From Candidatus Falkowbacteria bacterium RIFOXYA2_FULL_38_12 (GTDB lineage Bacteria > Patescibacteriota > Patescibacteriia > XYB2-FULL-38-15), in assembly GCA_001778095.1 (NCBI GenBank), contig MFGA01000008.1, positions 26,431-66,944 on the forward strand: a stretch of DNA of 40,514 nucleotides, given 5' to 3'. Every line of letters starts with the position of its first letter. Position 1 is the stretch's first letter. Below the pieces are notes generated by a model. That model was given only the letters and a program-made list of their open reading frames with translations, was not told where the DNA came from and searched no databases. This document shows positions 908 to 9,691 of the stretch, piece by piece. The translations under genes and the position numbers were made by a program.

Positions 908-965
908 AAAAGTGAGTATAATATAGGGAGCACACATTATACACAAACACTTCGTATATTAACTA

Positions 966-1480
966 GTTGTGACGAAATTGTTTTTCGCTCTCTTTCTAAA
1001 AATATTTTTTAATAAATCACCTTAGCTTGAAAATATGAAAATTGTAATCTGCGGAAGTATGTCGTCAGCCTGTCAAATGGTGGACGCCAAAAAAGAATTG
1101 CTTCAAAATAATCACGAAGTTATATTGCCGAAAAACACTGAACAATATGCGGAGAAAGTTTTGGCAGAAGAAACCGCTCATGAGTCAACCAAAAATAAGA
1201 TCGAACATGATTTGATTCGTGATTATTTTGAAAAGATAAAAAACGCTGATGCGGTATTGGTGGTCAATGTAGATAAAAAAGGTATTTCTAATTATATCGG
1301 TGGCAATTCTTTTTTGGAAATTGGTTTTGCACACATTCTCAATAAACCAATTTTCATATTAAATGATATTCCCGAGATGATTTATACTGATGAAATTTTA
1401 GCAATGCAACCCGTCGTGCTAAACGGTGATTTATTAAAAATACAATAAGGAAGAGAGAGTGAAAAACAACATCGCACAAC
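966..1480. repeat. Inverted repeat bracketing gene 1035-1448
   Basis: The arm at 966-994 (begins GTTGTGACG) is the reverse complement of 1451-1480 (ends TCGCACAAC) over about 29 bases, with one 2-base insertion, one single-base insertion, one wobble-type change and one 2-base mismatch. The left arm lies in the leader 40 bases before the ATG. The right arm starts 2 bases after the stop. The two neighbouring genes have the same arrangement. Confidence 0.85.
1035..1448 (+). CDS. Nucleoside 2-deoxyribosyltransferase-like protein
   Basis: A small Rossmann-like protein of 137 residues. It opens with a strand plus loop (MKIVICGSMS). Near residues 88-108 it has IGGNSFLEIGFA followed by NKPIFIL. This resembles the nucleoside 2-deoxyribosyltransferase signature, in which a Gly-rich turn is followed by the catalytic Glu (here probably E95) and a KP-[IV] strand. 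Members of this fold cleave or transfer N-glycosidic bonds of nucleosides or nucleotides, but many relatives are uncharacterised, so the substrate is unknown. The start at 1035 has no Shine-Dalgarno sequence. The gene sits inside a long inverted repeat (966-1480) and opens a cluster of nucleotide-handling genes. A TIR-like or DUF4406-like relative is a possible alternative. Confidence 0.6.
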   Translation: MKIVICGSMSSACQMVDAKKELLQNNHEVILPKNTEQYAEKVLAEETAHESTKNKIEHDLIRDYFEKIKNADAVLVVNVDKKGISNYIGGNSFLEIGFAHILNKPIFILNDIPEMIYTDEILAMQPVVLNGDLLKIQ

Positions 1481-1481
1481 A

Positions 1482-1604
1482 GCGTGTATGAGGTTCAAGA
1501 AAAAGTGCGTTAATAATTTTCAAAGGTTGCACTTTTTCTTTCACTCAAATTTCGCCTCCTCTATTGAGAAAAATAAGGAGGTCGGCGAAACTTATCATAC
1601 ACGC
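1482..1604. repeat. Compound palindrome with attC-like features
   Basis: An outer stem of 10 perfect pairs (1482-1491 with 1595-1604, GCGTGTATGA) encloses two hairpins: 1497-1508 with 1529-1540 (12 perfect pairs) and 1550-1560 with 1576-1590 (11 pairs with a 2-base bulge). It is followed by ACGTTAGCTG (1608-1616), which resembles the R' core of integron attC sites, and preceded by CGCACAAC (1473-1480), which is placed like an R'' box. The CACAAC of that box is complementary to the start of the preceding unit (GTTGTG at 966-971). No integrase gene is in the window. Confidence 0.75.
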
Positions 1605-1608
1605 AAAC

Positions 1609-2450
1609 GTTAGCTGAAATATTTTCAATTTTCTAAAATATACATATGGATTTAGTCACAACAGGAGCGGCGCTCGCCGTAGGTAAAAAAATATTTGGTA
1701 AAACTTTAGATGTTATATCTGCTGATATTGCCAACCTATATCAAAAGGGACGTGATAAAATCATTGAAAAAGTAACTAGCAAAATTGCCAATATTGATGA
1801 CGGAAAAACTGCTAATCTAAGGGTTACGCGTGATGTCTTTTGGAATGGATCGTTTACCGATGAGGCAATTTGCGCTGAATATTTTGGTGGAATTTTGGCT
1901 TCTTCGAGGAGTATAGATGGAAAAGATAACAGTGGTGTTTACTACGTCGATATCATTAAATCATTGTCGTCAAAACAGTTGCTTCTGCATTACGCGATAT
2001 ATTCATCGCTGAATAAAATTCTTACATCCAATCCTGATAAAATTAAGCTTAATCCGGGTCAAGAAAATGAACTTCAAAAAGAGCAATTGTTTCTTTCTAC
2101 CAATGAGCTTTTGAAAATTATTGACGACAATGATTTCGGTCGTGACCTTCATGCACTTCACGCAAAAGGATTAATCGGCGATTTTCAAACTGACTCTCAC
2201 AAGCTTAAGAATGAGCAGGTAGTCCCCAACCTAAAAGTTTCACCGAAATCATTAGGCATTCAACTATATGCTGTAGCCTACAACAAACTTACAGAGTGGC
2301 GTAATTTTACTACTGTTAATTTCGGCGAATTTGATGATATCGAATCGCCAAATTTTTATGGCCAAAATATTATGGAGTTGCTTGATAGTGCTGGAATTAA
2401 AGATGAAGAAGTTCAAAATAAGGAAGAAAATTGAAAATACATCAGCTAAT
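1609..2450. repeat. Inverted repeat bracketing gene 1646-2434
   Basis: Bases 1609-1634 (GTTAGCTGAAATATTTTC and onward) pair with 2425-2450 in 23 of 26 positions. The right arm contains the stop codon of the enclosed gene. The internal 2-base mismatch (TT opposite CA next to TC) falls at the same place as in the 966-1480 pair, which argues for a common architecture. Confidence 0.85.
1646..2434 (+). CDS. Unknown protein of 262 residues
   Basis: I do not recognise a family. The N-terminus (LVTTGAALAVGKKIFGKTLDVISADIANLY) looks like an amphipathic or weakly hydrophobic helix, and the rest appears soluble and mixed alpha/beta. A conserved-looking stretch, AICAEYFGGILASSRS then GVYYVDIIKSLSSKQL (about residues 72-115), may be a core motif. 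There is no signal peptide, transmembrane segment or catalytic signature that I can name. The start at 1646 has no Shine-Dalgarno sequence. The whole gene is enclosed by a 26-bp inverted repeat, and its upstream neighbour is an attC-like palindrome, so it may be a mobile cassette cargo gene. Such cargo often has defence or stress roles, but nothing in the sequence proves that. Confidence 0.75.
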   Translation: MDLVTTGAALAVGKKIFGKTLDVISADIANLYQKGRDKIIEKVTSKIANIDDGKTANLRVTRDVFWNGSFTDEAICAEYFGGILASSRSIDGKDNSGVYYVDIIKSLSSKQLLLHYAIYSSLNKILTSNPDKIKLNPGQENELQKEQLFLSTNELLKIIDDNDFGRDLHALHAKGLIGDFQTDSHKLKNEQVVPNLKVSPKSLGIQLYAVAYNKLTEWRNFTTVNFGEFDDIESPNFYGQNIMELLDSAGIKDEEVQNKEEN

Positions 2451-2501
2451 ACGGCATATCTGGTTCAGAAATTTTATACTATAATAAAGCCAAAATTTAT
2501 A

Positions 2502-3155
2502 AAAAATTATTTTAGGCTATGATTTATTTAATCGGGGGTCCGCCAAAGTGCGGAAAAACAACATTAGCAAAAAGATTATCAAAATCAAAAGGCATTCCCT
2601 GGGTGTCTACCGACACTCTTCAATGTGTCATAAAGCCGTACATGAATAAAAAGTATTTTTCAAAAAAGTTTCCTACCAATAATCAAAGAGGAAAAAACAA
2701 TGACGAAAAATACTCCAAATATTCAACAAACGAAATCGTTGAAGCATATCAGCAACAAGCAAAAACCTCGTATCAAGCGATTGATATGTTTACAGTTTGC
2801 GAAATTACAGATGGTAATGATTTTGTCGTTGAGGGTTATCACGTTGAACCTGAATTAGTCGCTGATCTAAACTCAAAATATCCCAATAAAATAAAGAGTA
2901 TTTTTCTTATCAAGACGGATGAATTAAAATTTATAAACGACATTAAGAAAAGCACAACTCCGAATGATTGGATTATTGCCAGAACAAACAAGGAAGAAAC
3001 ATATGGCAAGATCGCAAAAATGATCTGTGAATACGGAAAATTTTTTAAAAAGGAATCCGAAAAGCACGGCTTTAAAGTTCTGAATATGGACGATGATTTT
3101 GATAATCAAATAAATGAAGCTATTAAATACCTGACGATCGCCTAAAATAATTTTT
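2502..3155. repeat. Inverted repeat bracketing gene 2519-3145
   Basis: Bases 2502-2517 (AAAAATTATTTTAGGC) are the exact reverse complement of 3140-3155, 16 of 16. The left arm ends 1 base before the ATG and the right arm covers the stop codon. Complementarity continues imperfectly outward for several bases. Confidence 0.85.
2519..3145 (+). CDS. P-loop kinase-like protein (AAA/zeta-toxin-like fold)
   Basis: A single-domain P-loop NTPase of 208 residues. The Walker A motif is GGPPKCGKTTL at residues 6-16, followed by a helix (AKRLSKSKG) and then WVSTDTLQ, where small-molecule kinases usually carry the acidic substrate-binding residue (STD). A later segment, FVVEGYHVEPELV (about residues 102-114), matches the second strand and substrate region of the 2-phosphoglycerate-kinase/shikimate-kinase-like group. 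The substrate cannot be read from the sequence. The gene follows the unknown protein at 1646 and is tightly framed by a perfect 16-bp inverted repeat, with no Shine-Dalgarno sequence. A similar but distinct kinase is encoded at 3504. Confidence 0.8.
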   Translation: MIYLIGGPPKCGKTTLAKRLSKSKGIPWVSTDTLQCVIKPYMNKKYFSKKFPTNNQRGKNNDEKYSKYSTNEIVEAYQQQAKTSYQAIDMFTVCEITDGNDFVVEGYHVEPELVADLNSKYPNKIKSIFLIKTDELKFINDIKKSTTPNDWIIARTNKEETYGKIAKMICEYGKFFKKESEKHGFKVLNMDDDFDNQINEAIKYLTIA

Positions 3156-3196
3156 AAATAAGGAGGAGATTTTTTACATCATTTTTTCTTTCTTTT

Positions 3197-5094: not shown

Positions 5095-5345
5095 TAAACA
5101 ATCTAGACATAAGAACTGGAAACTAAAAGAGGTTCAGTTTCTTGGTTCGCATAGACATCACGTTCTAAAATCGTACTCAATAACTTGTTAAAATCGTCTC
5201 TGGCTTGTTTTTCACTAGAAAATTTCTCACCGTAGCTACTGCTACGACTCAAGATTTTCTACGCTCCAAAACTGCGCTAGAGCCAATTTTCCCTACGTTC
5301 TAAATACGATTCCGGAACGTGATGTCTATATATTTTAGTTGTTTA
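5095..5345. repeat. Long imperfect palindrome forming the infA leader
   Basis: The core arms 5151-5165 and 5315-5329 are exact reverse complements (15 bp, ATAGACATCACGTTC). Complementarity continues inward through further blocks toward a centre near 5240, where CGTAG and CTACG form the tip. Outer arms TAAACAA (5095-5101) and TTGTTTA (5339-5345) also match, leaving a smaller hairpin (about 5110-5147) as a side branch. The gene-free stretch 5021-5373 consists of the promoter, this structure and the infA start region. Confidence 0.8.
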
Positions 5346-9532: not shown

Positions 9533-9559
9533 TTTGTATACATGACTCGTTCTTCCCTC

Positions 9560-9639
9560 AGAAATTATATGATTTTTCTAGCGGAAAAACTCGCCTTAAC
9601 GGCTCAAACAGTTTCCGCCATAAAAATCATATAATTTCT
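9560..9639. repeat. Long hairpin after rpsI
   Basis: Bases 9560-9577 (AGAAATTATATGATTTTT) and 9622-9639 are exact reverse complements over 18 bp. Inside them, GCGGAAA and TTTCCGC pair again around a short AC-rich centre. It could end or stabilise the ribosomal operon transcript, but there is no T tail, so it is not a standard intrinsic terminator. Confidence 0.85.
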
Positions 9640-9691
9640 TCGGTTAATCAGTTAAAGGATGTTATATGTAATAATCATAAAATGTTATAAT

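Follow-up and report, generated by a model that had tools for sequence, protein, structure and literature searches.

The window, that is, the whole analysed stretch of 40,514 nucleotides, contains a short gene array that begins about 50 bp after alaS and has no integrase gene adjacent to it. The following features were distinguished.

951-978, plus strand: attI-like site, an L arm (t)TCGTATATTAACTAG and then R' TTGTGACGAAAT, with the predicted cut at G966|T967.
967-1609, plus strand: cassette 1 (R' to L'G), which carries gene 1 between R'/R'' arms and has a homologous unit in another CPR family.
967-1000, plus strand: 5' arm of cassette 1, R' TTGTGACGAAAT followed by the extension.
1035-1448, plus strand: gene 1 (137 aa), nucleoside 2-deoxyribosyltransferase-like by a weak Pfam match below the cut-off.
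1450-1480, plus strand: 3' arm of cassette 1, the extension followed by R'' ACATCGCACAAC (1469-1480).
1469-1620, plus strand: attC-like site between cassettes 1 and 2, with R'' at 1469-1480, L'' at 1482-1491, terminal hairpins, L' at 1595-1604 and R' at 1610-1620.
1610-2450, plus strand: cassette 2 (R' to R''), which carries gene 2 between R'/R'' arms.
1610-1634, plus strand: 5' arm of cassette 2, TTAGCTGAAATATTTTCAATTTTCT.
1646-2434, plus strand: gene 2 (262 aa), with weak similarity to Abi_alpha.
2425-2450, plus strand: 3' arm of cassette 2, the extension followed by R'' ACATCAGCTAAT (2439-2450).
2439-2480, plus strand: truncated attC-like site after cassette 2, in which R'' and L'' (ACGGCATATCTGGTT) are kept and L' and R' are gone; it matches an intact attC at locus L192.
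2502-3155, plus strand: kinase-like gene 3 (2519-3145) and the third repeat pair; no cassette can be recognised here.

Cassette 1 is intact, and the window holds one complete and one truncated attC-like site. Between genes 1 and 2 lies a sequence laid out like the attC of an integron: R'' ACATCGCACAAC and L'' GCGTGTATGA are followed by a variable hairpin region, which leads to L' TCATACACGC and R' G|TTAGCTGAAAT. The DNA fold of this site (1469-1620) has a z-score of -5.8 on the bottom strand. Gene 2 has no homologue in 362 CPR genomes, which is typical of cassette genes. The end of gene 3 (3158-3179) reads AAGGAGGAGATTTTTTACATC and resembles the 3' ends of real cassettes, with R'' absent. Gene 3 comes immediately after the truncated site and could be either ordinary flanking DNA or a cassette that has decayed.

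The first-pass annotation had described three consecutive genes enclosed by inverted arms of one architecture, joining the leader of each gene to its 3' end. We confirmed pair 1 (966-994 with 1451-1480, score 28.25) and pair 2 (1609-1634 with 2425-2450, 23/25 matching, score 20.5), and none of 1000 dinucleotide shuffles reached the score of either pair. When the 5' arm is aligned with the reverse complement of the 3' arm, pair 1 reads TTGTGACGAAATTGTTTTTCGCTCTC / TTGTGCGATGTTGTTTTTCACTCTC and pair 2 reads TTAGCTGAAATATTTTCAATTTTCT / TTAGCTGATGTATTTTCAATTTTCT. In both pairs an AA-versus-TG mismatch lies at the identical position after GA. The TT/CA mismatch beside TC seen earlier in these pairs is thus a fixed AA/TG difference between R' and R'', and the arms do differ from gene to gene, being cassette-specific beyond a shared outer motif. 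Pair 3 (2502-2517 with 3140-3155) matches at 16/16 positions, is AT-rich and also beats 1000 shuffles. However, in this AT-rich genome 4 of 3000 real 80-mers (about 0.1%) match its leader equally well, so that roughly one gene of this kind should occur in each genome by chance. The pair contains neither the R'/R'' motif nor any conserved element of pairs 1 and 2. The single architecture therefore holds for genes 1 and 2, on the strength of the shuffles and the shared motifs, but not for gene 3, with its chance of about 0.001 per gene and its lack of motifs. The inverted arms of genes 1 and 2 are the ends of integron-like cassettes, and the gene 3 pair is not a cassette end of the R'/R'' type. 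An Rfam scan found no relevant RNA family.

Leader/3'-end complementarity is in excess across the genome as well. Among 855 genes, 11 had a score of at least 18, when 1.0 was expected from swapped leader/tail pairs. Apart from dispersed inverted repeats, the excess at this score comprises the two genes of the window, a deaminase gene located on contig C6 and another gene, at C6:48243, whose end motif is the same. Most other high leader/tail scores of the genome also belong to dispersed inverted repeats, and were rejected as cassettes. The window itself has a 54-nt imperfect inverted repeat (5151-5204 and 5276-5329, 72%) whose arms enclose a loop of 71 nt; since C2:69680 has a similar stretch, this repeat is probably a dispersed element. 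There is also a long intergenic hairpin at 9558-9641, to which two unrelated animal microRNA models gave matches below the cut-off on both strands. A microRNA reading of this hairpin was rejected; it is just an inverted repeat.

Genus, family and order offered only 1-3 genomes, too few for a comparison, and we compared the cassette ends of this genome with those of CPR genomes at large. At the start of a cassette stands G|TTRNNYGAAAT (R') followed by an arm specific to that cassette, and at its end the complement of this arm followed by ACATCRNNYAAC (R''). Adjacent cassettes are joined by attC-like hairpins of the form R''-L''...L'-R'. The search for this pattern covered 285 kb, taken from the array side of 40 integrase loci and from the three other arrays of this genome, and gave 29 paired attC sites; the reversed sequence gave 0 sites and the other strand gave 1. 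The pattern misses strongly degenerate motifs, and some cassette calls may span two units (e.g., L071 and L197). The L''/L' stems covary, their sequence varying while pairing is kept. They mostly consist of 10-11 uninterrupted pairs, a few having a one-base bulge, and the AA/TG mismatch of the R box is asymmetric. A perfect NNNN match of R'' to its own R' was found in 9/22 cases, and to the R' of the next cassette in 1/22. Beyond the R box, the arms of 47 R'-to-R'' units pair with a mean score of 10.6 for own arms versus 5.7 for swapped partners, and an extension score of at least 10 is reached by 60% of own arms versus 2.4% of swapped arms; the motif patterns were partly derived from the loci used for swaps, a circularity that the extension test and the reversed control limit, and some G genomes and L loci come from identical records. 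The unit ends are complementary over R and 10-25 or more further unit-specific bases, with the fixed AA/TG mismatch. For classical cassettes the corresponding extension is 9-11 nt in all (PMC2727003).

The attI-like site ties the window array to an integrase elsewhere in the genome. The 43 nt located 5' of gene 1 recur twice: once immediately in front of a gene for a tyrosine recombinase on contig C5 and once before another array on contig C6. Across the 914 kb genome the core of the window attI occurs just 4 times, once adjoining the integrase gene; the fourth copy, at C6:48203, was found by a pattern scan. In total, the genome has one integrase-linked attI (C5:11757-11790) and three further attI-like sites with cassettes. 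The conserved site upstream of related CPR integrases is approximately A-TTCGNATAWWAACGAG|TTANNNGAAAT, and its two arms are reminiscent of dif. The strict pattern lies within 260 nt of the start in 30/43 integrase loci, compared to 11/2720 random windows of the same loci. Thus, an attI site adjoins the integrase gene on C5 and at other CPR loci, and the window array has an attI-like sequence only. Having no adjacent integrase, it would now depend in trans on the C5 enzyme.

Two further arrays of this genome (G000) were inspected. The one at C6:5300-6550 (L006, minus strand) has an attI-like site, a short ORF-less cassette-like unit, a dCMP/cytidine deaminase cassette with long arms, and a closing R' that is identical to the R' of the attI. 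This ORF-less unit is also found at the end of contig C5, where it probably interrupted the assembly. At C6:48203-48910 (L042), a GNAT acetyltransferase gene forms a lone cassette with its own attI-like site, and a near-perfect panhandle of 30 nt encloses the gene.

The catalytic residues R-K-H-R-H-Y of the C5 recombinase are invariant. Its CPR relatives were found in 47/380 sampled genomes (12%), and at 45-75% identity they occur in Uhrbacteria, Nomurabacteria, Berkelbacteria, Magasanikbacteria, WWE3 and other CPR lineages. A scan of viral contigs gave only 6 relatives, mostly distant. Relatives with a weak attI-like sequence upstream but no clear cassettes are also present in a DPANN archaeon (Pacearchaeota; L100, L102), and for L100 this result comes from a simple arm search. 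XerA-like integrases of Bacteroidota (L103-L110) lie near IntI in the tree and have a common C-terminal SPF/SPL motif. In this tree the CPR integrase forms its own clade beside IntI and not inside it, and IntI and XerC/D are each separated by 100% branches. Identity with chromosomal XerC/XerD was considered and rejected: the integrase is a 100% branch apart, a separate XerC/D-type Xer of this genome is encoded on C6, and there are four attI-like sites. Among solved structures the best match, whether judged by sequence or by predicted fold, is VchIntIA (2a3v), the integron integrase of Vibrio cholerae; the fold comparison used a model of the L071 protein (75% identical, pLDDT 88). Residues 181-241 of VchIntIA have no counterpart, the integrase having 18 residues there versus 61, which means that the IntI-specific insert is missing. 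The enzyme passes the model NF040815 (XerA / 'site-specific tyrosine recombinase/integron integrase') with 226.8 at a cut-off of 220, and stays below the IntI model TIGR02249 with 217.7 at a cut-off of 265. It is not an IntI-type recombinase with the additional domain (patch III).

Could this be a canonical integron, with IntI and attC, that has merely gone unannotated in CPR? The layout of integrase, attI and cassettes is the same, the core is G|TT, and VchIntIA is the best PDB match. However, the IntI-specific domain is missing, the tree places the integrase outside IntI, and no match above the IntI cut-off was found in 362 CPR genomes, where positive controls were found at 1e-113 and 1e-154. 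In addition, the mostly uninterrupted L stems do not have the conserved extrahelical G described for attC (PMC2727003). We consider a canonical integron very unlikely.

The cassettes carry one to a few genes per unit, and the main ORF is in sense in 30 of 31 well supported cassettes. Their products include DNA methylases, NUDIX hydrolases, an HNH endonuclease, a deaminase, an acetyltransferase and unknown proteins. Window cassette 1 (967-1481) is 82.8% identical to a unit at L192 in genome G140, which belongs to a different CPR family. The alignment runs from the TT of R' to the AAC of R'', and the flanks differ. Likewise, L071 and L200 have in common a 1.7 kb unit (88% identity), which occupies different positions in their arrays. 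These are apparently mobile, mostly single sense-ORF cassettes with exact ends common to unrelated genomes. The first-pass annotation had offered mobile cassettes with palindromic ends as one of two readings, and the R'/R'' units, the attC-like sites and the unit-exact homologue strongly support it.

The other reading was an mRNA panhandle, which would join leader and 3' end and control stability or translation, mobility being irrelevant. In its favour, the arms either overlap the ends of the coding region or lie immediately beyond them, and base-pairing between them would be expected in a transcript, with duplex values of -25.9 and -22.2 (DNA parameters). However, one outer motif surrounds unrelated genes in many genomes, and the arms stop exactly at att sites beside an integrase. 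The homologues speak in the same direction. The arms of cassette 1 and of its G140 copy differ in sequence, and each pair is complementary; outside arrays the homologues of gene 1 have no arms and score 6-10, which is the null level, when the array copy alone scores 22.75. A further 29 homologues of genes 1 and 3 had neither an R'/R'' pair nor arms. Arms that are missing in non-array homologues and present with a new sequence in the array copy belong to the cassette state and not to the gene. Control by a panhandle is therefore, in our opinion, even less probable than a canonical integron. Independent insertion sequences or MITE-like elements that captured genes between terminal inverted repeats can practically be dismissed: inverted repeats do flank the genes, and dispersed ones occur in the genome, but the arms are gene-specific apart from the outer motif, neither an encoded transposase nor one repeat common to the copies was found (the cassette ORFs have other functions), and the units abut head to tail via shared att hairpins in arrays that start beside an integrase. 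We hold with high confidence that an integron-like system of CPR bacteria has a small cassette array at 951-2480 of the window, at which recombination would take place.

By analogy with integrons, the enzyme would exchange strands at G|TT, and circular cassettes with a reconstituted attC hairpin would be inserted into attI. In a free circle, R'' would meet its own R' and the full arm would pair; in the array, R'' would face the R' of the next cassette and the arm would open. Folding of the two forms of 19 sites gave a mean difference of -13.3 kcal/mol for the circle versus the array (p = 8e-6), and window cassette 1 folds at -49.9 as a circle versus -31.9 in the array. The gene-specific arms may act as a ratchet: free cassettes would be better substrates than integrated ones, and capture would be favoured over excision. 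Most L stems are without extrahelical bases, as would suit an enzyme that does not have the IntI insert by which such bases are read. Integrons could in theory use a double-stranded DNA pathway, and CTXphi is an example of a folded site without extrahelical bases (PMC4792948). On balance, we lean towards a CPR lineage of integron-like platforms of its own, with no IntI domain, with hairpins that imitate double-stranded dif-like sites and with long arms as a capture ratchet; it would represent either the dsDNA-like ancestral state of IntI integrons or an independent origin.

Integrons are gene-capture systems that spread antibiotic resistance, and CPR bacteria are ultra-small. The first-pass annotation knew of no named system whose arms are gene-specific in this way. 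Integrons are such a system, though here the integrase is unusual and the arms are much longer. As in IntI-type integrons, including CALIN arrays without integrase, the integrase is divergent from attI, the cassettes stand head to tail, the attC has the form R''-L''...L'-R' with the core G|TT, and R' and R'' of one cassette are complementary. Unlike them, the CPR system has an integrase without the IntI-specific insert, a dif-like attI and a CPR host. Its R box is extended to GAAAT/ACATC with the fixed AA/TG mismatch, its L stem is mostly without extrahelical bases, and its arms run on for about another 10-25 nt or more, compared to 9-11 nt in all for classical cassettes (PMC2727003). With XerA (NF040815) it has in common a score above the cut-off, the absence of the IntI insert and relatedness to Bacteroidota proteins that have the same C-terminal SPF/SPL motif; it differs in forming a separate CPR clade that is tied to attI and cassette arrays and is not of the chromosomal XerC/D type. 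Users of XerCD-dif such as CTXphi also rely on a folded single-strand site without extrahelical bases and on a Y-recombinase lacking the I2 helix (PMC4792948). However, CTXphi is a single phage that borrows the XerCD of its host, whereas the CPR system has a dedicated integrase linked to many cassettes.

We found no report of integrons in CPR in the open-access literature, the scope of our search. A review of integron-bearing phyla omits Patescibacteria (PMC8618304), and archaeal integrons possess the IntI domain (PMC9668308). Both the definition of integrons and the standard tools that search for them rely on the IntI domain and the classical attC model, so the CPR arrays would be missed by these tools. 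The system makes it testable whether integron-type capture works without the IntI-specific domain, a theoretical possibility raised earlier (PMC4792948). The integrase occurs in about one in eight sampled CPR genomes and would offer these very small genomes a general means of exchanging genes.
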